Origin: Chloroflexaceae bacterium
GTDB lineage: Bacteria; Chloroflexota; Chloroflexia; Chloroflexales; Chloroflexaceae
Length of the DNA stretch: 64,000 nucleotides
NCBI GenBank assembly: GCA_025057155.1
Contig: JANWYD010000023.1
Span: 1 to 64,000, forward strand
Reading direction: 5' to 3'
The notes under the pieces are model-generated. The model had not been told where the DNA came from. It ran no database searches and saw only the letters and a program-made list of their open reading frames with translations. This document shows, piece by piece, positions 19 through 10,630 of the stretch; positions within the stretch are counted from its first letter, which is position 1; the number at the start of each line of letters is the position of its first letter. The position numbers and the translations under genes are program-made.

Positions 19-1740
19 CTACTCCGGGCGCAGCCAGGCCGCCTGGTATGGGGCCAGCTCTATCCCGTCCGTGCCGGGGGGATAGCGGGTTCCGCTGATG
101 AGGTCGCGGGCGCCTCCCACAGCGGGCGCCGGCGCCCGCTGCGGCGCGCCAGAGACGTTGTGCAGGCACAGCACCGTCGCGTCACCCTCGGGCGTGCGGC
201 GTTCCAGCGCAAAGACCGACGGGTGCACGTCGAGCACCTGCTGTGGGCTATTGGGGTGAAAGGCTCGCTCATTACGCCGCGCGCGGATGAGCCTTGCCAT
301 GCGTTGCAGCACCGTCCCCTCGCGGCGCCGGGGGTCGGCCAGGCGCGCCTCCAGATCGGCCCGCGTCCACTTCTCGCGATTCAGGCTGCGGAAACGGCCG
401 GTGGCTTGCAGTCCCTGCTGATAATTAGGCGACCCCAATAGGCTGTGCACGTAGACCCCCGGCACGCCCTGCAGGGCCAGCATGATCGCCTGCGAGGCGA
501 GGAAGCGCCCGATTGCCAGTTCTGGCGCCTCGCCGCCGGCGGGGCCGGAGAGAGCGTCGAACCAGGTGCAGTTCAACTCGTAGGGACTTTGCGAGCCGTC
601 GGGGTTGGTCTTGTAGGAGACGCGCCCGCCGTGGCGCTCCACCTGCGCGCACAGGTCCTGCACTTCGGCCTGGCTCAGGATGCCGGTCGCAGGCACCACG
701 CCGATGCCGTCGTGGGAGGCCAGGAAGTTGAAGAACGCCGTCGTTGGCGAGGGCGGGGCCAGTTCGCGCGCCCAGCCGCTCAGGCGGGTGGCGTCGCCGG
801 TGGCGAAGGCGTGCAGCACCAGGGGCGCCAGCGGAAACTGATAGACCAGTTGGGCCTCGTTGCTCCCGTCGCCGAAGTAGCTGATGTTGTCGGCGTGGGG
901 CACGTTCGTTTCGGTGATCAGCAGCACGTCTGGAGCGACCACATCCAGCACAGCGCGCCAGAGTTGCACGATCCGGTGCGTGTTCGGCAAATGGATGCAG
1001 GTCGTACCCGGTTCTTTCCACAGGTAGCCAATGGCGTCCAGACGGATCAGGCTCGCGCCGTGCTCCACGTAGGCGAGCAGCACGTCGGTCATCTCCAGCA
1101 ACACTTCGGGATTGGCGAAGTTCAGGTCAATCTGGTCGGCGCTGAAGGTGGTCCAGACGTGGCGCACGCCAGCGGCGGTCTCGAAGGAGGTGAGCAGAGG
1201 GGTGGTGCGCGGGCGCGTCACTCCCCGCAAGTCGGTGGCGGGGTCAACAACGTGGAAGCGAGCCTCAGCGCCGGGCGCGCCGGCCAGAAACTCGCGGAAC
1301 CACGCACTGCTGGCCGAGATGTGGTTCACCACCGCGTCGAACATCAGGCGGTAGCGCCGGCTCAGACGTTCGATGTCGGCCCACGTTCCCAGAGCGGGAT
1401 CAACGGCGCGATAATCCACCACCGAGAAGCCGTCATCGGAGGTGTAGGGAAAGAATGGCAGGATATGGACGCCGCTGACAATGCCGCCGAAGGTCGTATC
1501 AAGGATCTCGCCGAGGGTCTGGAGGGGTGGGCGATCCGGCTCGCGGACCTGGTCGCCATAGGTGATCAGGATCACGTCATTCTCGGTGAGCCGTTCGGCG
1601 GGCGGGCGCGGCGGGCCTGGAGGATGGCGAGCCACGAAGTCATCGAGCATGGCCTGCAGGCGCGGAGTGATCGCCGCGCCTGCGGGCTGGCCGTAGATCG
1701 CCTCAAGCAGCGTGTGGATACGGGCGCGCGGGTCGCTCAT
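19..1740 (-). CDS. Glucosylglycerate phosphorylase-like GH13_18 enzyme
   Basis: The 573-residue protein is a GH13 subfamily 18 (sucrose phosphorylase-like) enzyme. The (beta/alpha)8 motifs are visible: FDAVVNHIS (region II), IRLDAIGYLWKE with the Asp nucleophile, ITETNV with the acid/base Glu, and FLASHDGIG with the His-Asp pair. At 573 residues it is longer than classical sucrose phosphorylase (about 490) and nearer the glucosylglycerate phosphorylases. It would reversibly phosphorolyse glucosylglycerate to glucose-1-phosphate and glycerate in the cytoplasm. The ATG overlaps the stop of the upstream synthase gene as ATGA (1737-1740), so the two are probably translationally coupled. Specificity within GH13_18 is inferred from this context; sucrose or glucosylglycerol cannot be excluded. 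Confidence 0.85.
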   Translation of the reverse strand: MSDPRARIHTLLEAIYGQPAGAAITPRLQAMLDDFVARHPPGPPRPPAERLTENDVILITYGDQVREPDRPPLQTLGEILDTTFGGIVSGVHILPFFPYTSDDGFSVVDYRAVDPALGTWADIERLSRRYRLMFDAVVNHISASSAWFREFLAGAPGAEARFHVVDPATDLRGVTRPRTTPLLTSFETAAGVRHVWTTFSADQIDLNFANPEVLLEMTDVLLAYVEHGASLIRLDAIGYLWKEPGTTCIHLPNTHRIVQLWRAVLDVVAPDVLLITETNVPHADNISYFGDGSNEAQLVYQFPLAPLVLHAFATGDATRLSGWARELAPPSPTTAFFNFLASHDGIGVVPATGILSQAEVQDLCAQVERHGGRVSYKTNPDGSQSPYELNCTWFDALSGPAGGEAPELAIGRFLASQAIMLALQGVPGVYVHSLLGSPNYQQGLQATGRFRSLNREKWTRADLEARLADPRRREGTVLQRMARLIRARRNERAFHPNSPQQVLDVHPSVFALERRTPEGDATVLCLHNVSGAPQRAPAPAVGGARDLISGTRYPPGTDGIELAPYQAAWLRPE

Positions 1741-3623
1741 CGCGGCGCCTCCTGCAGCGGCTGTCCGGCCACCTCCAGGGGCAGGCCGCGCAGGTGCCGG
1801 TATTCGGGGATCTGCAGCATCGGCGGGCGCTCGTGGTCGCGGATTTCACGCAGTTCCAGATGGAAGCTGCCGTCCTCGCGCTGGGTGATCAGTTTCATAG
1901 TCTGGTTGACCGGTTCGAGCAAGCTGGCGCGCTGTCGCTGTTCAAGCCGCTGGATGACCACCTGGGTGATGGCGAAGGCCATTTTAGAGAGAGGAACGAG
2001 TTCCTGGTTGCGATGGATGCGCTCGAGCAGATCAACCTGGGCCAGGGCGCTCAGCCCGTAGCGCTCGAGCAGATCAATCAGCAGGCCCGTCTCCACGCCA
2101 TAGCCGGTGAAGAAGGGCACAGACTCGAGGGCGAAGCGCCGCCCGGCATATTCGCCGGCGAGCGGCTGGAGCATACCTGAAAGTTCGGGATAAAACAGGT
2201 TGAGCAGGGGCCGGGCGGTCAGCTCGGTGACGCGGCCGCCGCCGCTGGCCTGCACCCGCTCGCCGAACTGGATGGGCCGCCGGTAGAAGCCCTTGCAGTA
2301 CACCAGCCGGCGTTCGCGCAGCAAGGGGCCGATCACGCCATAGACGAAGCGCGGATGGAAATTTTTGATGTCGGTGTCGCACCAGGCGATAATATCGCCG
2401 TTGAGCACATAGAGGCTCTTCCACAGGGCTTCGCCTTTGCCGTGGAAGGCGCCGTACTGCGGCAGGATCTCTTGATGAATGTAGACCGGGATGCCGTGGG
2501 CAAGGGCAATCTCACGGGTGCGGTCCTGCGAACCGCTATCAATCAGCGCCACCTCGTCGAGGAGGGGTGTTTTCTCCATCAGGTGCTCCTGCACCTGGCC
2601 GATGATATCGCCGATGGTCTGCTCCTCGTTGAGGGTCGGCAGGCCAAGGCTGATGCGCACCCCCTGCTGCTGTTTAAGGGCCAGGAGGCGTTGCAGGTCG
2701 TCATACTCGGTGGAACTGAAGGTGTTTTCGGCGAACCAGCGGTCAACAATAGCCGAGAGATCGCGCTGTTGCTGCCAGATCCGCTGGGCCTGCTCCTCGT
2801 CCTGGGCCATGCGATGGCGCACGAGGATGACCGTGGTCGCGGCCTTGCGCAGGATGCGGTCGGCGAGGGGGCCGATAGGCGCTTCGGGGTCGCCCTGACG
2901 GCCGGTGACGCCCAGCACAATTGCTTGATGGTCGGCGGCCTCGGCCAGAATGGCCTGCTCGACGGGGATGCTGCGCTCCAGCCAGCGGGTGACGCGAGGC
3001 ATGGCGCGCAGCGATTGCAGGCTCTCGCGCACGGCGCCATTGTCGGGCAGGCGCGGGTTGGCGGCGTAGAGCACGCTGATGCCGGCCTCGTGGCTTTCAG
3101 CCAGAGCGAGGGCCACTTCACAGGCCAGGGGGGTGTGGGGGCCGCCGCGCACGGGCAGGAGGATGCGCCGCCACTGGCCATCACCCATGAGGCGCACCAC
3201 CACCACATCACAGGGAGGATGGCGCAGCAGGCTGTCAATCGGCGGGCCGAAAAGCCGCTCCGAGGAAGACTGCTCGGCCTGCCAGCCAAGCAGGATGAGG
3301 TTGGCCCGCTGCTCCTGGGCGGCGGTGCGGATGCCCTCGGTCAGATCATGGGCCACGGTGATCACGGTGCGCACAGGGACCTGGATCGTATCCAGTTCGG
3401 CGATTGCGTCGTGGACGGCCCGCACCCGCCGCGTCTCCAGCATCCCGTCGCTCAGGGGTTGACCTTCGGGCACCACCACAATGCTGACGATCACCACCTG
3501 GCCGCCGTGATGGCGGGCAATATCCGCCGCCAGGGGCAGCAGCAGGCGGATCTTCTCCGGCGCCCGCGCGGGCAGAAGCACCGTATATTCTCCGGTATCG
3601 TTGCCGGTATATGCAGAAGTCAT
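1737..3623 (-). CDS. gpgS: Two universal-stress domains fused to glucosyl-3-phosphoglycerate synthase (GT81)
   Basis: The protein has 628 residues. Residues about 13-145 and 150-275 are two UspA-like alpha/beta domains (for example ILLGWQ and IVLGVTGRQG near their nucleotide-loop positions). A linker follows, and residues about 325-570 match the GpgS/GT81 fold: GLPTLNEEQTIG for nucleotide-sugar binding, IDSGSQDRT, and the metal-binding DTD in AWCDTDIKNF. The GT domain is predicted to join NDP-glucose and 3-phosphoglycerate to make glucosyl-3-phosphoglycerate. Stand-alone GpgS proteins are about 320 residues, so the stress domains are an added module. An AGGAAGG-type ribosome site precedes the ATG. 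No dedicated phosphatase (GpgP) is seen in the operon, so that step must be encoded elsewhere. Confidence 0.85.
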   Translation of the reverse strand: MTSAYTGNDTGEYTVLLPARAPEKIRLLLPLAADIARHHGGQVVIVSIVVVPEGQPLSDGMLETRRVRAVHDAIAELDTIQVPVRTVITVAHDLTEGIRTAAQEQRANLILLGWQAEQSSSERLFGPPIDSLLRHPPCDVVVVRLMGDGQWRRILLPVRGGPHTPLACEVALALAESHEAGISVLYAANPRLPDNGAVRESLQSLRAMPRVTRWLERSIPVEQAILAEAADHQAIVLGVTGRQGDPEAPIGPLADRILRKAATTVILVRHRMAQDEEQAQRIWQQQRDLSAIVDRWFAENTFSSTEYDDLQRLLALKQQQGVRISLGLPTLNEEQTIGDIIGQVQEHLMEKTPLLDEVALIDSGSQDRTREIALAHGIPVYIHQEILPQYGAFHGKGEALWKSLYVLNGDIIAWCDTDIKNFHPRFVYGVIGPLLRERRLVYCKGFYRRPIQFGERVQASGGGRVTELTARPLLNLFYPELSGMLQPLAGEYAGRRFALESVPFFTGYGVETGLLIDLLERYGLSALAQVDLLERIHRNQELVPLSKMAFAITQVVIQRLEQRQRASLLEPVNQTMKLITQREDGSFHLELREIRDHERPPMLQIPEYRHLRGLPLEVAGQPLQEAPR

Positions 3624-3665
3624 TACAAACGTTCCTTCCTCGCCGGTAGGGGATGCTGCAGGCGG

Positions 3666-4913
3666 TCAGGCCGACGTGCCTGCGAGCAATGGGACGATGT
3701 GCCGGCGCACGATCGCCTCCCACGTGTAGGTCGTGCGGACGCGTCGCCGCAGCGCGTAGCGCGGATCAGCGGCAAGCGCGGTCAGGATCCGTTCTGCGAT
3801 CTGATCGGGACGCTCTTCGAGCCCAAAGTACACTGCGGCGGAACCGGCCGAGTCCCGCAGGGGCGGAATGTCGCTGCAAAAGATCGGAATCCCGCTCAGC
3901 CCCGCTTCCAGCACCGGGATGCCAAAGCCTTCGTAGCGGCTGGGGAAGAGCAGGCCGTCGGCCAGGTGAAAGAAATCGGCCAGCATGGCGTCGGAGACGG
4001 GGCGCGGCTGGCCTTGCGGGTCGGTGAAGACCTCGTAGAGAAACACCATGGAGTCTCCGGCCCCGGTTTCACGGCGCAGGGCCAGCAACTCGGCCAGGTA
4101 GGCGGCGTTGGTCGGATTGTGCGGCCCTGGCGGCCCGGTGACCACCAGGCGCGGATCGGCGCCCTGGCGGCGCATGGCGCCTGCGATGGCGACAGCCAGT
4201 TCGATGTTCTTGCGCCGGGTAATGCGCGCCGGCAGGAGGAGCAACGGGGCGGCCTCCAGCAACCGTAGCCGCTCAACCAGGTCAACCGTCTCGGGTTCGA
4301 GCTTGAGCAAGGCCCGCACATCAACGCCGGGCGTCACTACGGCGATCTGCTCCGGCGCCAAGCCCAGCAACTCGGCCAGGATGCCTCGCCGGTCCTCCGA
4401 GACGACCACATAGCGCACCCCGGGCCACGCTTCGCGAAGCAGATCCCAGGGGTAGCCGGGGTGCAATTCAGGCAGATATAAAGGATCGCGCCAGGCGAAG
4501 TCGTGGCACCAGGCCAGCATACGGGGCAGACGGCCGGCGTCGTGGAGGCGCCGCAGGGCAGCGGTAAAGGCCAGGTTCTTGTGCAGGCTCAGCACATTAT
4601 GCACCATCAGCGCATCGCAACCGGCGATGGCGTCGTCAAGCCACGTGGCGAGGCGATCTCGCAGGGCCAGAAACTCGGCGCTGACACTTCCCGCGGCCAG
4701 TTCGCGGTTGATGCGTTCGACCATCTCGCCGCGAGAGCCGAGTTCGGGCAAGATGCGCACGTCTACACTCGGTCCAACATCCCCGCCCTTTCCGGCAAGG
4801 ATGCGCACCGACCACCCCAGCGCGGCGAGCGTTCGCCCGTGGGCGGCCATGGTGATCTCGACGCCGCCGACGTAGGGCGGCCCGGCGTAGTGCAGGATGG
4901 CAACCGCGCTCAT
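3666..4913 (-). CDS. GT4 glycosyltransferase, candidate mannosylglucosylglycerate synthase
   Basis: The 415-residue GT-B transferase shows the GT4 pattern: an N-terminal glycine-rich loop (HYAGPPYVGGVE), a central RITRRKN segment and the C-terminal EGFGIPVLEAG donor-binding E-x7-E motif. The start chosen (MSAVAILHYAG) overlaps the upstream GH63 stop as ATGA at 4910-4913; the frame opens 15 codons earlier. It sits between a glucosylglycerate hydrolase and a glucosyl-phosphoglycerate synthase. The most economical inference is therefore that it extends the glucosylglycerate, for example with mannose from GDP-mannose, as described for MggS in Petrotoga. That acceptor is not readable from sequence; a polysaccharide role is the alternative. 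Confidence 0.72.
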   Translation of the reverse strand: MSAVAILHYAGPPYVGGVEITMAAHGRTLAALGWSVRILAGKGGDVGPSVDVRILPELGSRGEMVERINRELAAGSVSAEFLALRDRLATWLDDAIAGCDALMVHNVLSLHKNLAFTAALRRLHDAGRLPRMLAWCHDFAWRDPLYLPELHPGYPWDLLREAWPGVRYVVVSEDRRGILAELLGLAPEQIAVVTPGVDVRALLKLEPETVDLVERLRLLEAAPLLLLPARITRRKNIELAVAIAGAMRRQGADPRLVVTGPPGPHNPTNAAYLAELLALRRETGAGDSMVFLYEVFTDPQGQPRPVSDAMLADFFHLADGLLFPSRYEGFGIPVLEAGLSGIPIFCSDIPPLRDSAGSAAVYFGLEERPDQIAERILTALAADPRYALRRRVRTTYTWEAIVRRHIVPLLAGTSA

Positions 4914-6694
4914 ACAATCTCTCCCCGGCTCATGCGGATGGCCAGATCGATGAAGCAAGCCGCCGACCAGCCGAACATGGGCGCGGCCTTGGGCGGCGCT
5001 TCACCGGTCAGAGGGTGATAGTACTCGTAAATGTCGCGCTGGCCCATTACCAGGCGCAGCGTCTGCTCGGCGAGTTCCCCGGCGAGAGCCTGAAAGCCGG
5101 TGCGCTGTAGAGCCTCGACGAAAATGTAGTTGATGTTGATCCACACCGGCCCGCGCCACATCTGCTGGGGATCGTGGCGGGGATCGCACAGGGCTACCGT
5201 GGGCAGCGGATATGTGGCCCAGAAGCTGCGCGGGTCGCGCAGGTGGGCGATCAGGCGTTCGGTAATTCGGGGCGGCATGCGTCCCGTCCAGAGGGGGTAG
5301 AGGCTGAAGGGGGTGAGCACCTTGATCGGGCGGTGCTCGCGCTGCGACCAGAACACGCCGGCATCCTCGTCATAGAAATGCTCAATGATGCGCCGCGCCA
5401 GGGCATCGGCGCGGTTCTTCCACAGCGTAGCCTCACGCGGGCGCCCCAGGATGCGGGCCATATTGGAGAGGGCCTCCATCTGCAGGCAGAGATAGGTGTT
5501 CAGGTCCACCGCCTCGACCGGCATCCCCTCGTCCCAGAGCGGGCTGTCGTCGAGCCCTGAAGAGAAGGGATGCGAGTACTGCGCGATCCCGTCGGCGTCA
5601 TCATCGTTCAGGCCGAACCACCACGAGTTCCAGCGCACCAGCGGCTCGTAGATCTCGCGGAGCATGGCAAAGTCGCCAGTCTGATTGTACACATGCATTG
5701 CGACCCAACCGATAATCGGCGGCTTGGTCACCGCGGCGGCCACCGGGGCCTCCAACTGGGTGATGGTGCCCTCGTCGTAGACGGCGTCGGGGATCATGCC
5801 ATCGGGCAACTGATGGTCGAGCATGAACTGGATCTGGTCGCTGGCCAGTTTCGGGTCGGTATAGCGGAAGGCCAGGGCGTGGAAGTAGTTGTCCCATTGC
5901 CAGGCCCCGATGTAGTGGGCCTTGCTGGGGGCCACGCTCTCGCGGCGGAAGTAGCCGTAGGGCGAGAGCATATTGTTGCCGAGCACCCACCAGGCATAGT
6001 AATACTGCTGGCGGTAGGGCTCGTGCACCGCGGGCACTCCGGCGAACCAGCGATGCCAGCGCTCTTCGGCGGCGCGCAGGGCGGCGCGAAAGGGCACGAC
6101 CCGCCGGTCAAGGTCGAGACCGGCCTGGATGTGCAGGGTGATCGCCGTATCGGCGTCGCCCTGGGCCACCAGCGTCACGTGGTAGCCGACGCCGTTATGC
6201 TCCACCTGGTTGAGGATCAGGGCGCCGTTGGTAGAGTAGGCGCAGTTGCGCACCGTTTTGAACTCGCCTCCCTGCGAGTCGGGGCGGGCCAGGTCGGGCA
6301 CGACGGTGAAGCTGATGCCGCTCGCCACGCCCGTAGGCAGACCGAAACTCAGCGTGTGCGCGTCTTGAAAGACGCAGCGAAACTCGCCGACGGGGGTCTG
6401 GAACATGACGGCGTGGGGATAGGTGGTCGCCTCGAAGGGGACAGGGCGGCCATTGCCATCCACCAGGCGCAGGCTGGGAATGTACGGCGGGCGATGACGG
6501 TAGGCCGACAGGCCGGGGGTGACCGAGGTCAATCGTTCGGCAAGCTTGAGATACAGGGTGTCAGGCTGCCGACGATCTTTGAAGAGCAACAGTCGCGAGC
6601 CGCGGTCGCTGAAGGGAATGCGTTCAAGCAGGATGCGGTTCTCGAGGGCAAGGAGAAAGGACGACTCAGGGACGTACACGTGTGACACCTCCAT
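4910..6694 (-). CDS. GH63-type glucosylglycerate/mannosylglycerate hydrolase
   Basis: The 594-residue protein has a beta-rich N-terminal half and a C-terminal (alpha/alpha)6 barrel. The barrel carries the WQWDNYFHALAF and EYYHPLTGE segments typical of GH63 glucosyl/mannosylglycerate hydrolases. It would hydrolyse glucosylglycerate to glucose and glycerate in the cytoplasm (no signal peptide). I start it at the ATG at 6694 (MEVSHVYVPESS) because homologous-looking sequence begins there. The frame is open for 86 more codons of low-complexity GC-rich sequence. A GGAG lies just before this ATG. It is the first gene of the operon and stops in an ATGA overlap with the GT4 gene. Confidence 0.8.
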   Translation of the reverse strand: MEVSHVYVPESSFLLALENRILLERIPFSDRGSRLLLFKDRRQPDTLYLKLAERLTSVTPGLSAYRHRPPYIPSLRLVDGNGRPVPFEATTYPHAVMFQTPVGEFRCVFQDAHTLSFGLPTGVASGISFTVVPDLARPDSQGGEFKTVRNCAYSTNGALILNQVEHNGVGYHVTLVAQGDADTAITLHIQAGLDLDRRVVPFRAALRAAEERWHRWFAGVPAVHEPYRQQYYYAWWVLGNNMLSPYGYFRRESVAPSKAHYIGAWQWDNYFHALAFRYTDPKLASDQIQFMLDHQLPDGMIPDAVYDEGTITQLEAPVAAAVTKPPIIGWVAMHVYNQTGDFAMLREIYEPLVRWNSWWFGLNDDDADGIAQYSHPFSSGLDDSPLWDEGMPVEAVDLNTYLCLQMEALSNMARILGRPREATLWKNRADALARRIIEHFYDEDAGVFWSQREHRPIKVLTPFSLYPLWTGRMPPRITERLIAHLRDPRSFWATYPLPTVALCDPRHDPQQMWRGPVWININYIFVEALQRTGFQALAGELAEQTLRLVMGQRDIYEYYHPLTGEAPPKAAPMFGWSAACFIDLAIRMSRGEIV

Positions 6695-6771
6695 GGCTCC
6701 GGCGCCCCTGGCGTCGGGCACAGGGGGATAGGGGGCGGCGGGGCTTTCCGGTCGGTCTACGCACCCGCTGT

Positions 6772-6777
6772 ATTGTA
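6772..6777 (-). promoter_or_regulatory. Possible -10 box of the solute operon
   Basis: On the minus strand this reads TACAAT, about 78 nt before the GH63 ATG. No convincing -35 hexamer is seen at the right distance, so this is a weak call. Confidence 0.3.
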
Positions 6778-6907
6778 GCATTTCCCGTTCGGAGGGCGGT
6801 GTAGAGCGGGCGGTTGCGCTGCATCGGTTCCTGAGAGGGCGTCTACCTCCCCGAACGACCCCGATCAGGCCCGGTGCGTCGCGTCCAGCGGCTCCTGGCG
6901 GCTCTAG

Positions 6908-6936
6908 TTGACATATGCGGTTCCGGGCCGTATCTT
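6908..6936 (+). promoter_or_regulatory. Sigma70-type promoter of the Kef antiporter gene
   Basis: TTGACA (6908-6913), a 17-nt spacer and TATCTT (6931-6936) form a good housekeeping promoter. The leader to the ATG at 6988 would be about 45 nt. It lies in the 293-bp divergent spacer with the glucosylglycerate operon. Confidence 0.75.
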
Positions 6937-6987
6937 TAAGCTGTAGAGACACACGCAGTCGTAACGCAGAGCAGCGAGGACACCCCC

Positions 6988-9006
6988 ATGGGCATTGCCG
7001 CCGACATTACCATCATTCTCGTCGCAGCGCTGCTAGGCGGCTTTGTGGCCCGGCGCCTGAACCAGCCGCTCATTCTGGGCTACATCGTCGCCGGCATTGT
7101 CGTCGGACCCTACACCGCCGGCCCGCGGGTAAGCGATATCCACGATATTGAACTCCTCGCCGAGATCGGGGTGGCCCTGTTGCTCTTCGCCCTGGGAGTA
7201 GAGTTTAACCTCAAAAAGCTCATCCGTTTCAAGTGGGTGGCGTTTGGCGGCACGCTGCTGCAAATGACTCTTACTGCCGCCGTCGGCTTCTTGCTGGGCC
7301 GCTTCCTGGGATGGGACCCGTATCCCGCCTTGTGGCTGGGCGCGCTGGTGTCGCTCTCTTCGACCATGGTCATCCTGAAGACGCTCATGGGTCAGGGCAA
7401 GCTTGGCACCCTGGCCAGCCGGGTCATGCTCGGCATGCTGATCGTTCAGGATCTGGCTGTGGTGCCGCTGATGATCATGCTCCCCGAACTGGCGAACCTG
7501 AGCGATGGCCTGGTGAATCTGGGGCTGGCGGCGCTCCGCGCCGGTCTGATCCTGGCGGCGATGGTCTTTGTCGGCACGCGGGTGATTCCGTTCCTGCTGA
7601 AACGGATTGCCACCTGGAACTCACGCGAGCTGTTCCTGGTGGCGATCATGGCCCTCGGCCTGGGGATCGGCTACGCGACCTATCTGGCCGGCCTGTCCTT
7701 CGCCTTTGGGGCCTTCGTGGCCGGCCTGGTGCTCAGCGAGTCGGATTATAGCCACCAGGCGCTGAGCGACATTATCCCCCTGCGCGATGTCTTTGGCATA
7801 CTGTTCTTCGTGTCGGTGGGGATGCTAATCGATCCGGCTTTCCTGCTGGCCAACTGGTGGTCCATCCTGATGCTGACCCTGGTGGTGAGCGGAGCCAAAG
7901 CGGCGATCTTCACCGCCGTGGTGCGCCTGTTCGGCTACCGCGGCGACGTGCCGCTTACCGTCGGATTCGGGTTGTTCCAGATCGGCGAATTCGCCTTTGT
8001 CCTGGCGCGAGCGGGTCTGGGCGTCGGCGCCCTGACCGCCGCGCAGTCGAACCTGGTGCTCGCCACAACGGTGGTGACGATGATCCTCACCCCGTTCGTC
8101 AGCCGGCTGGCGACGCCCACATACACCCTCTGGCGCCGCTGGCGCGGCAAAACGCCCAGTCCCATGCTGGCGCGTATTGAGGAACCTCTGCGCGGCCACA
8201 CGATTATCGCCGGTTACGGGCGGGTCGGTCGCTACACGGCCGACCTGATGCGCCGGCTGGGGCATCCCTTTGTGGTCATCGAGCGCGATCAGCATCGCAT
8301 TGACACGTTGAAGGCCAGCAGCATCCCGGTGATTTATGGCGATGCCAGCAGCCCGACAGTGCTGGAGGCGGCGGGCGTCCACGAGGCGCGGCTGTTGCTG
8401 GTGGCGGTGTCGGCGGCGATTGACGTCGAGACCATCGTGCGCCAGGCCCGCGCGCTGAACCCGCGCCTGCACATCGTTGCGCGGGCCACGCGCCTGGCCC
8501 AGCTTGAGGTGCTGCGCCAGCTGGGGATTCACGAGGTGGTGCAGCCCGAGTTCGAGGCCGGCCTGGAAATGGTGCGCCAGGCGCTTCTGCATTTCGACGT
8601 TCCCACCGCGGAGATCGAACGTTTAAGCGACGCCGTGCGGGCCGAATGTTACCAGCCGATGGAGGCTCTCAACACCGACGCGGCGACGCTGCGCCGCCTG
8701 CGCCGCGTGCGCCGCAGTCTGGATATTGTCTGGTACACGTTGTCGTCCGATTCGCCGCTGGCGGGGAAGAGCATCGGCGCCAGCGCCATCCGCAAACGCA
8801 CCGGCGTCTCCGTCGTTGCCGTCCTGCGCGGCGAACGGGTTATCGCCAATCCCGATCCCGAGACGGTACTGGAAGCCGGCGACCAGCTCGCCATTCTGGC
8901 GACGCCGCCACAGCGGGCGCTGTTCCAGCATTGGGTCGAAGGCGCCGGCGCAGAACCGGCCCCGGCGTCGGCAACAGCGGCGACCACCGTGGCTACCGGC
9001 ACGTAG
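6988..9006 (+). CDS. Kef/CPA2-type monovalent cation:proton antiporter with TrkA-N and TrkA-C domains
   Basis: The 672-residue membrane protein has about 12-13 hydrophobic segments in residues 1-390 (Na+/H+ exchanger fold). A TrkA-N Rossmann domain follows at about residues 400-520 ([15 protein letters not shown], then EIERDQ-type acidic end [11 protein letters not shown]). A TrkA-C/RCK domain is at about 570-645. It is predicted to export K+ or Na+ in exchange for H+, gated by NAD(H) or another ligand on the Rossmann domain. It is transcribed divergently from the compatible-solute operon, which fits a shared role in osmotic/ionic homeostasis. The ion is not determined by sequence. The start ATG is preceded by a purine-rich AGCGAGGA site. 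Confidence 0.9.
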
Positions 9007-9113: not shown

Positions 9114-10298
9114 CTACGGCGCGGGTTCACCTGCGGCCCCCAGGACGCGCGCCACCGGCACTCCCTCCTGGTGCCCCTTGGTTGCCAGCAGGATCGGTTC
9201 GCTCGTCAGGTAGCGGCCCTGCACCTCGCTGCGCACGCGCCCTGAAACCAGGATCTCGCCGCTGTTGGCATGCTGCATCAGATGGGCCGCCAGGTTCATC
9301 TCATCGCCCTGAGCCGTATACACGCGCCGCTCTGCGCCGCCCACGGTGCCGAGATAGAGCAGCCCCTGGGTAATCCCGGCGTGGGTGATCAACCCCCGTT
9401 CGCGTAACTCCAGGCAGCATCCCACCGCCTGGCTCGCGTCCGCGCCGCGGCCCAGCGGCCCGCCAAAGAGCAGCACCAGCACGGCGCCTTTGTTGCCCAC
9501 CTCGATCTCGTTCAGCCAGCCGCCCCAACGCCAGGTTGTCTCCTGCACCTGGCTCACCAGCGTATGCAGGCCACGCGGATGAGCCGGCAAAGCAAAGCCT
9601 GCAAAGACGGGAATGCACGTTCGGTACTCGGCAGTGAGCGTCTGGCGGCGCAGGCGTTCGATAAGCGCGCGGGGGAGGAAATCGTCATCCCGCAGCGGCG
9701 GCCCGGGCTCACCCGGCTGAAAACGCGTTCGCTCGGCAGTCATGGCGGGCGGGCTGGCAACAACGACCTGGCCCGTACATGCGGCGCGTTCCGCAGTCGC
9801 CGCCGCCAGCAGCGCCGGCCCCAGCAGGGTCAGATGCACCCCGTAATGCGGCAGGCCGGCAAGGATGGCATGGATCATTCCCGCGCCGATCCCAATTCGC
9901 AGGTAGAAACGAAAGGGCCCCGACGGCGTAGCGAGGGGCGGCAAGGCGTTCACCGCCTCGAGCAAGGCCATCGCGCAGCGCTGCGCCAGGACTACGTCGG
10001 CCTGGTTGGGCCACCAGGCGGTCAAGGCGTCACCGGCAATCGCCGACACGTCGCCGCCGTATGCGGCTACGGTCTCGATCAACACGGTATAGCAGCGGTT
10101 CAGGGCGGTATGGAGGCGTTCGGCGCCGTCGGGCAGGGTGGCGAAGGCGGCAGTCAGGCGAGTGAAGCCGCGCAGGTCAGCATAGAGCACTGTCGCCTGG
10201 CAGGTAAAGACAGCCCCTGGCCGCAACTCGGCGCTCCCGATCCGCGCGCGCAACCAGTGTGAAAGGTAAGGCCGCAGGTGCGCCGGATCGGTGGACAT
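9114..10298 (-). CDS. Tandem class III adenylate/guanylate cyclase-domain protein
   Basis: The 394-residue soluble protein carries two cyclase homology domains. The first (about residues 20-190) has YADLRGFTRL with the metal-binding Asp and GDVSAIAGDALTAWW with the second Asp. The second (about 225-385) starts PVFAGF in place of the Asp motif and looks degenerate, although TAQGDEMNLAAHLM is kept. Such pairs usually precede an AAA ATPase and TPR region in larger regulators; here the protein ends after the cyclase pair. It could make cAMP/cGMP or act as a nucleotide-binding sensor. The start MSTDPAHL is chosen over an upstream in-frame ATG because the upstream gene's stop is only 5 nt away from it. 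Confidence 0.75.
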   Translation of the reverse strand: MSTDPAHLRPYLSHWLRARIGSAELRPGAVFTCQATVLYADLRGFTRLTAAFATLPDGAERLHTALNRCYTVLIETVAAYGGDVSAIAGDALTAWWPNQADVVLAQRCAMALLEAVNALPPLATPSGPFRFYLRIGIGAGMIHAILAGLPHYGVHLTLLGPALLAAATAERAACTGQVVVASPPAMTAERTRFQPGEPGPPLRDDDFLPRALIERLRRQTLTAEYRTCIPVFAGFALPAHPRGLHTLVSQVQETTWRWGGWLNEIEVGNKGAVLVLLFGGPLGRGADASQAVGCCLELRERGLITHAGITQGLLYLGTVGGAERRVYTAQGDEMNLAAHLMQHANSGEILVSGRVRSEVQGRYLTSEPILLATKGHQEGVPVARVLGAAGEPAP

Positions 10299-10303
10299 GG
10301 AAG

Positions 10304-10630
10304 TCAGGCGATGGAGGCAGGGGTGGAGTCGTCGCTCAGGGCGCTGCAAGCGGCGCAGACGCGAAAGGGAATGCCCGTGCCGCTGACGGTGCGGATGTTC
10401 TCGCGGCAGCCGCAGTACCGGCAGACCGAGAGATTTTCAATATCGTCGGCGCGCCAGAGTTGCGGGGCGAGCGTGATCTCCATTGGTTCATCTATCGAAA
10501 GAATACCCACCTTGACGCAAACAGCGGCGGGGAAGACGTCGGCGACGCGGGCAAAAATCTTGTGCGGATAGGAATACACCTCGTCGCCTACCATAATGCC
10601 CTGCATTCGTGGATGTTGTCGGATCTTCAT
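10304..10630 (-). CDS. Small zinc-ribbon-like protein of unknown function
   Basis: This 108-residue protein is not recognised. Its C-terminal third holds CRYCGC followed about 17 residues later by CAAC, a likely four-Cys zinc ribbon. The N-terminal part (MVGDEVYSYPHKIF) has no known motif. The ATG overlaps the stop of the upstream 83-residue gene (ATGA, 10627-10630). The downstream cyclase gene begins 5 nt after its stop, so all three are probably one operon. Function unknown; a metal-binding partner of the cyclase protein is a guess. Confidence 0.6.
   Translation of the reverse strand: MKIRQHPRMQGIMVGDEVYSYPHKIFARVADVFPAAVCVKVGILSIDEPMEITLAPQLWRADDIENLSVCRYCGCRENIRTVSGTGIPFRVCAACSALSDDSTPASIA

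Follow-up and report, generated by a model that had tools for sequence, protein, structure and literature searches.

The window analysed here, the first 64 kb of contig C23 in the 5.1 Mb draft genome of a Chloroflexaceae bacterium (the contig begins at window base 1), carries a four-gene operon that is probably best explained, overall, as a loop for making and phosphorolytically degrading glucosylglycerate. The loop would consist of a glucosyl-3-phosphoglycerate synthase (GpgS) and a 2-O-glucosylglycerate phosphorylase (GGaP), would be gated by two UspA domains fused to the synthase, and would be complemented by a GT4 glycosyltransferase and a GH63 hydrolase acting on an outer sugar. Synthesis and phosphorolysis of glucosylglycerate by the GpgS/GGaP core is very probable from the sequences, and the fused Usp pair is likely to be a regulatory module; the pairing of GT4 with GH63 around an outer sugar, with predicted substrates, is tentative and somewhat below an even chance. 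The protein families, the fusion, its conservation and the phosphorylase motifs were established by sequence comparison, and the Usp-Usp-GpgS fusion with its constant GT4 partner is the part of the system deserving attention.

The four genes lie uninterrupted on the minus strand in the order GH63, GT4, GT81 protein (the synthase) and GH13_18 phosphorylase. The positions of all four and the exact ATGA overlaps between GH63 and GT4 (4910–4913) and between the synthase and GH13_18 (1737–1740) agree with a preliminary description of this DNA, which had proposed the operon, had placed synthesis and breakdown of glucosylglycerate next to each other and had named the GT81 and GH13_18 families correctly. 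GT4 and the synthase are separated by a gap of 42 bp, with GGAAGGA upstream of the synthase start. The gene order is retained in other Chloroflexaceae, indicating that the four-gene arrangement is not due to chance, and in genomes of the same genus the operon terminates after GH13_18, with a convergent gene next. Long plus-strand open reading frames opposite the operon (for example, 445–2061 and 2355–4268) were interpreted as shadow frames of the GC-rich coding sequence.

The sequence of the GT81 protein assigned it firmly to the glucosyl-3-phosphoglycerate synthase family, with a score of 369 bits on the NCBIfam model NF010496 (GpgS) against a cut-off of 262. The GT81 half, at approximately residues 291–606 of the 628-amino-acid fusion, contains DTD at 416–418 (the DxD metal site), GKGEALW at 395, GGGRVTEL at 461 (the 3-phosphoglycerate-binding loop) and RIHRN at 535; the DxD site and the GGGRVTEL loop are near-invariant within the family. 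In phmmer searches this half matched Rubrobacter MpgS (3f1y; 7e-77, 263 bits) and mycobacterial GpgS (~1e-59, 207 bits). Since the Rubrobacter enzyme is the nearer of the two, similarity does not settle the donor sugar; the GGaP partner in the operon argues for glucose.

Solved GT81 structures matched only the C-terminal half of the fusion. Residues ~1–285 represent two UspA domains (PF00582; 85.7 bits in two stretches in a Pfam search), as a result of which the gene is twice the usual size; the preliminary description had recognised the synthase family and missed these domains. An AlphaFold2 model built from 48 homologs (mean pLDDT 87.5, pTM 0.63) showed two Usp units in tandem and, after them, a GpgS/MpgS fold, the Usp fold matching Rv2623 and TTHA0350. 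Homologous regions were collected as 80 loci (numbered L), the best named matches to the synthase and nearly all labelled Chloroflexota, and 78 of these encode the Usp-Usp-GpgS fusion (46 of 48 as judged by Pfam). The remaining two are L161, which is cut by a contig end, and L104, in which the Usp pair is a separate overlapping frame. Three actinobacterial GpgS genes from plasmid-collection records lack the fusion and matched the GpgS half only. The conservation of the fusion across the phylum points to a direct action of stress signals on the synthase.

The ATP motif of Usp proteins, G-2x-G-9x-G-[S/T], has been lost from the first domain and reads G-2x-G-9x-G-P in the second, and is degenerate in most homologs as well; a classical ATP-binding Usp was ruled out on these grounds. 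Usp domains are reported to be able to bind cyclic AMP (PMC11107214) or cyclic di-AMP (PMC4686210). The genome encodes a protein with a DAC (diadenylate cyclase) domain. A ligand- or partner-sensing Usp switch on GpgS, possibly responding to a cyclic nucleotide, through which the stress domain of the synthase itself would gate osmolyte production in Chloroflexota, combined with a GT4/GH63 pair that makes and breaks an undescribed disaccharyl-glycerate, is a further-reaching reading that we consider rather unlikely. Sequence matches to the Usp pair included haloarchaeal genes on plasmids that carry an amino acid permease annotation.

The signature motifs of the GH13_18 protein firmly predict a GGaP. 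Glucosylglycerate-specific members of this family carry (T/S)ETN at beta-strand 5 and Glu, not Gln, in loop A (PMC7178133), and both motifs are present in the window protein, as TETN at residue 276 and PYELN at 386, the latter at the aligned position where sucrose and glucosylglycerol phosphorylases have YQ. Homologs in related loci contain (T/S)ETN in 22 of 22 cases and PYE also in 19 of the 22, and the nearest solved enzymes to the window protein are GH13_18 phosphorylases. Sucrose phosphorylase was rejected, the score on TIGR03852 being 199.5 against 334.4 bits and loop A reading SPYE rather than N(L/V)D(I/L/V)YQ. GGaP-type phosphorylases often adjoin gpgS, gpgP or glycerate kinase genes (PMC7178133), so that the arrangement is partly known already. 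Across 301 Chloroflexota genomes, the set used for all genome counts below, 34 of the 36 with GGaP also carry the synthase. In genomes that lack the synthase, GGaP genes were seen in LacI/ABC-importer operons (L201:6278-9232 and L202:8051-9793), one of them with an MggS-like GT4; uptake of glucosylglycerate as food is possible there.

No phosphatase gene, GpgP included, is present in the window operon. Of 69 related loci long enough to judge, 19 encode a histidine phosphatase of ~190 amino acids directly downstream of the fusion; it falls within the mycobacterial GpgP superfamily, with 4pz9 among its matches. Six homologous histidine phosphatase stretches occur outside the operon in the genome itself; none was assigned as the missing GpgP, as the four that could be read out fell apart from the operon-linked enzymes in a quick tree. 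A DUF4147/MOFRL glycerate kinase is encoded in the genome and lies beside the cluster in L038/L112 and L194, and L194 contains, in a single run, GGaP, GH63, an MggS-like GT4, a histidine phosphatase, GT4 and Usp-GpgS, with the glycerate kinase nearby.

The GT4 protein (PF00534, PF13439) has the E-x7-E motif as EGFGIPVLE at residue 328. In 56 of 65 loci its ortholog is the gene immediately before the fusion, and the synthase accompanies it in 63 of the 65 genomes that have GT4 (Fisher p ~1e-42, uncorrected for kinship). Based on this adjacency and co-occurrence, the GT4 is very likely to be functionally tied to the synthase. On the model for mannosylglucosylglycerate synthase (MggS; NF041101) it scored 47.6 bits against a cut-off of 640, with its N-terminal half only, and all 30 orthologs tested matched the model weakly. 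A second GT4, clearly MggS-like, occurs in 21 of the 80 loci, matching over its whole length at 229–263 bits, below the cut-off. The genome encodes such a protein away from the operon (C2:193642-194853; 218–228 bits full-length, below 640; also L180:7625-8884), which would be the better candidate judging from these matches if a mannosylated form is made. The gene on C2 has a single-domain Usp gene in its vicinity, along with reaction-centre genes recognised by eye. In several loci of lineages without GT4, a mannosylglycerate-synthase-like gene (PF21969, 492 amino acids) occupies the GT4 position upstream of Usp-GpgS (L077:11351-12826 and similar loci).

The GH63 protein (PF22422 MGH1-like_GH, 242 bits; PF03200, 63 bits) consists of an N-terminal beta domain and an (alpha/alpha)6 barrel, as in YgjK and glucosidase I. 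The catalytic residues D382 and E557 (Asp182 and Glu419 of glucosylglycerate hydrolase, GgH) and the -1 subsite (Y261, W265, W267, D268 and W513) are kept. The residues of MhGgH on the glycerate side are Gln115, Arg216 and Tyr375 (PMC6608630). In the group to which the window GH63 belongs, alignment and spacing mapped Gln115 to Lys324 and Tyr375 to Met512, and the alignment gave no equivalent of Arg216, no Arg being present between 386 and 403. The score on the GgH model NF047898 was 93.4 bits against a cut-off of 550, and nothing in the genome passes this model. In fold comparisons made with a structure model whose active-site loops are of low confidence, the window protein aligned end to end with YgjK (Z 33, 540 residues), and with GgH/MgH along the barrel only (Z 33–35, ~330 residues). 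A canonical GgH was ruled out by the score, the glycerate-side residues and the YgjK-like architecture.

A GH63 or debranching (GDE)-type hydrolase was found in 20 of 44 loci with GT4 vs 0 of 8 without (p = 0.017, uncorrected for kinship). Homologs ~50% identical to the window GH63 occur in the L190, L191 and L192 operons together with LacI, an ABC sugar importer (both recognised by eye), GH13 and a ROK kinase, which suggests import and breakdown of an alpha-glucoside. In Ca. Dormiibacter and some further lineages, the GH63 slot upstream of GT4 is filled by GDE_N_bis/MGH1-like hydrolases of ~705 amino acids (L153, L156, L157, L159 and L171). After ABC permeases in a Chloroflexota genome in which no Usp-GpgS was found, GH63 is followed by GT20 (OtsA-like), GT4 and trehalose-phosphatase (L185:7203-12588); here the GH63/GT4 pair is joined to a different glucoside core.

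In the proposed pathway, the GT81 half would join glucose from nucleoside diphosphate glucose to 3-phosphoglycerate, and a phosphatase encoded outside the operon would strip the phosphate to give 2-O-alpha-glucosylglycerate, to which GT4 would add, and from which GH63 would remove, a second sugar, the product being a disaccharyl-glycerate. With the stress over, GH13_18 and phosphate would split glucosylglycerate into glucose-1-phosphate and glycerate, and a glycerate kinase encoded elsewhere would feed the glycerate back to glycolysis. Synthesis would be coupled to a stress or nucleotide signal through the fused Usp domains.

Several observations weigh against this pathway. Each reaction is predicted from sequence, and the association statistics were not corrected for phylogeny. 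The occurrence of GH63 in the sugar-import operons means that it may be a general alpha-glucosidase, and a general intracellular role of this kind is possible. The ATP motif, a possible pointer to the signal, is degenerate in both Usp domains, and the four histidine phosphatases of the genome that could be read out branched outside the operon-linked ones in a quick tree. Mannose transfer is possible as well, given that the closest solved relative of the synthase is Rubrobacter MpgS, ahead of mycobacterial GpgS. The Rubrobacter enzyme has dual sugar specificity. The GT81 half would on that account make mannosyl-3-phosphoglycerate, and the solute would be mannosylglycerate rather than glucosylglycerate; however, the phosphorylase of the same operon bears the glucosylglycerate-specific motif set, the synthase passes the GpgS model, and a search of the genome returned no classical MpgS (PF09488), making this decidedly unlikely.

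The preliminary description read GH63 as a glucosylglycerate hydrolase, providing a second degradation route parallel to the phosphorylase, and suggested that GT4 could be a mannosylglucosylglycerate synthase. The retained catalytic Asp/Glu and -1 subsite of MgH/GgH and the good superposition of the barrel are in agreement with the former, and the uniform if weak match of the GT4 orthologs to MggS with the latter. However, the replaced glycerate contacts, the low GgH score and the YgjK-like N-terminal domain argue against a second route, while GT4 as MggS is unsupported, the score being far below the cut-off and better, full-length MggS-like genes being present in other operons and elsewhere in the genome; GT4 may be a mannosyltransferase, its match to MggS covering the N-terminal half. 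The two-route explanation as a whole therefore appears improbable. It could also be argued that, as for mycobacterial methylglucose lipopolysaccharide, GpgS primes a longer chain, an oligo- or polysaccharide lengthened by GT4 and trimmed by GH63, and that the operon does not end in the free solute. The presence of as many as three GT4 genes in certain operons (L112 and L113) and the GDE debranching-like hydrolases that replace GH63 in other lineages would fit such a role, but the GGaP of the same operon degrades a free glucoside, and the conserved neighbours included no gene recognised as a methyltransferase, acyltransferase or GH57; we regard priming as having a low probability. The glucosylglycerate loop is retained as the preferred explanation, with the outer-sugar pair as its less certain part.

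The features of the operon and its surroundings are as follows.

Coordinates of the operon and neighbouring features in the window
Feature	Position	Strand	Remarks
GH63 protein, first operon gene	4910..6694	-	594 aa
GT4 glycosyltransferase	3666..4913	-	415 aa, start ATG 4913
Usp-Usp-GpgS fusion ('GT81' gene)	1737..3623	-	628 aa
GT81 catalytic half of fusion	1740..2765	-	phmmer matches, motif positions
Tandem UspA domains of fusion	2766..3623	-	PF00582
GH13_18, predicted 2-O-glucosylglycerate phosphorylase (GGaP)	19..1740	-	573 aa; end 18 bp from contig edge
Divergent intergenic region, operon / Kef-type antiporter	6695..6987	.	293 bp
CPA2 (Kef/YbaL-type) antiporter, TrkA_N + TrkA_C domains	6988..9006	+	divergent neighbour; domain matches
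Class III adenylate/guanylate cyclase-like protein	9117-10349	-	PF00211; adjoins Kef antiporter

Within the intergenic region, a consensus search identified one sigma-70-like site on the plus strand (6908–6936; consensus match only) and none on the minus strand, the side of the operon. The Kef antiporter had been cited as fitting osmotic control; it is indeed a divergent neighbour, but it adjoins the operon only in the closest relatives, which makes it weak evidence for such control, and the argument was dropped. A homolog of the cyclase also adjoins Kef in L032, from the same genus. With a class III cyclase beside Kef near a Usp-fused synthase, a cyclic-nucleotide link is conceivable.

The synthase is present in 86 of the 301 Chloroflexota genomes and, within the same family, in 7 of 19, including this one, the other 12 being without it. 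A gene-order comparison with Roseiflexus and Chloroflexus, suggested earlier, had nothing to draw on, as neither genus was represented among the 80 best named synthase matches. Close named relatives were uncultured Chloroflexales, Ca. Viridilinea, Ca. Chloroploca and Oscillochloris, and visual inspection of open reading frames in the genome picked out reaction-centre L and M proteins; taken together, these point most probably to a filamentous anoxygenic phototroph of the Chloroflexaceae. A saline spring was the source of one carrier, Ca. Viridilinea halotolerans (PMC6346205), and alkaline waters were the source of two more, Ca. Chloroploca asiatica and Ca. Viridilinea mediisalina (PMC6180586); these habitats fit an osmolyte role. 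With OHK40 and Ca. Dormiibacter also among the carriers, salinity alone probably does not explain the distribution.

In the open-access literature, we found no paper on glucosylglycerate in Chloroflexota, on 'glucosylglucosylglycerate' or on a Usp-GpgS fusion. Use of glucosylglycerate-type solutes by many Chloroflexota, uncultured lineages of saline and soil habitats among them, is suggested by these findings, and GpgS, histidine phosphatase, GGaP, GT4, GH63 and glycerate kinase provide a defined gene set for testing. What Usp domains do is still debated in large part, and their covalent attachment, as a tandem pair, to an enzyme with a simple established assay, across much of the phylum, makes the effects of the Usp pair and of its ligands on activity directly measurable.

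Compared with known systems, the predicted phosphorylase resembles GGaP of Meiothermus silvanus, Spirochaeta thermophila and E. coli in TETN, the loop-A Glu and the genomic link to gpgS, gpgP or glycerate kinase. The GT4 shares its family and a weak N-terminal match with MggS of Petrotoga and Rhodopirellula and differs in falling below the model cut-off. The GH63 has the catalytic Asp/Glu, -1 subsite and barrel fold of MhGgH and TTHA0978 (MgH/GgH), from which it is distinguished by an extra N-terminal domain, replaced glycerate contacts and a score far below the GgH model; its two-domain build and whole-length alignment are those of E. coli YgjK (GH63). The catalytic half of the synthase is ~40% identical to mycobacterial GpgS and Rubrobacter MpgS and shares their main motifs, but, unlike these enzymes, is fused behind two UspA domains. 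These domains have the tandem fold of Rv2623 and TTHA0350, whereas, in contrast to tandem Usp proteins and Usp-bearing transporters, the Usp pair of the window protein is placed at the N-terminus of a biosynthetic glycosyltransferase.

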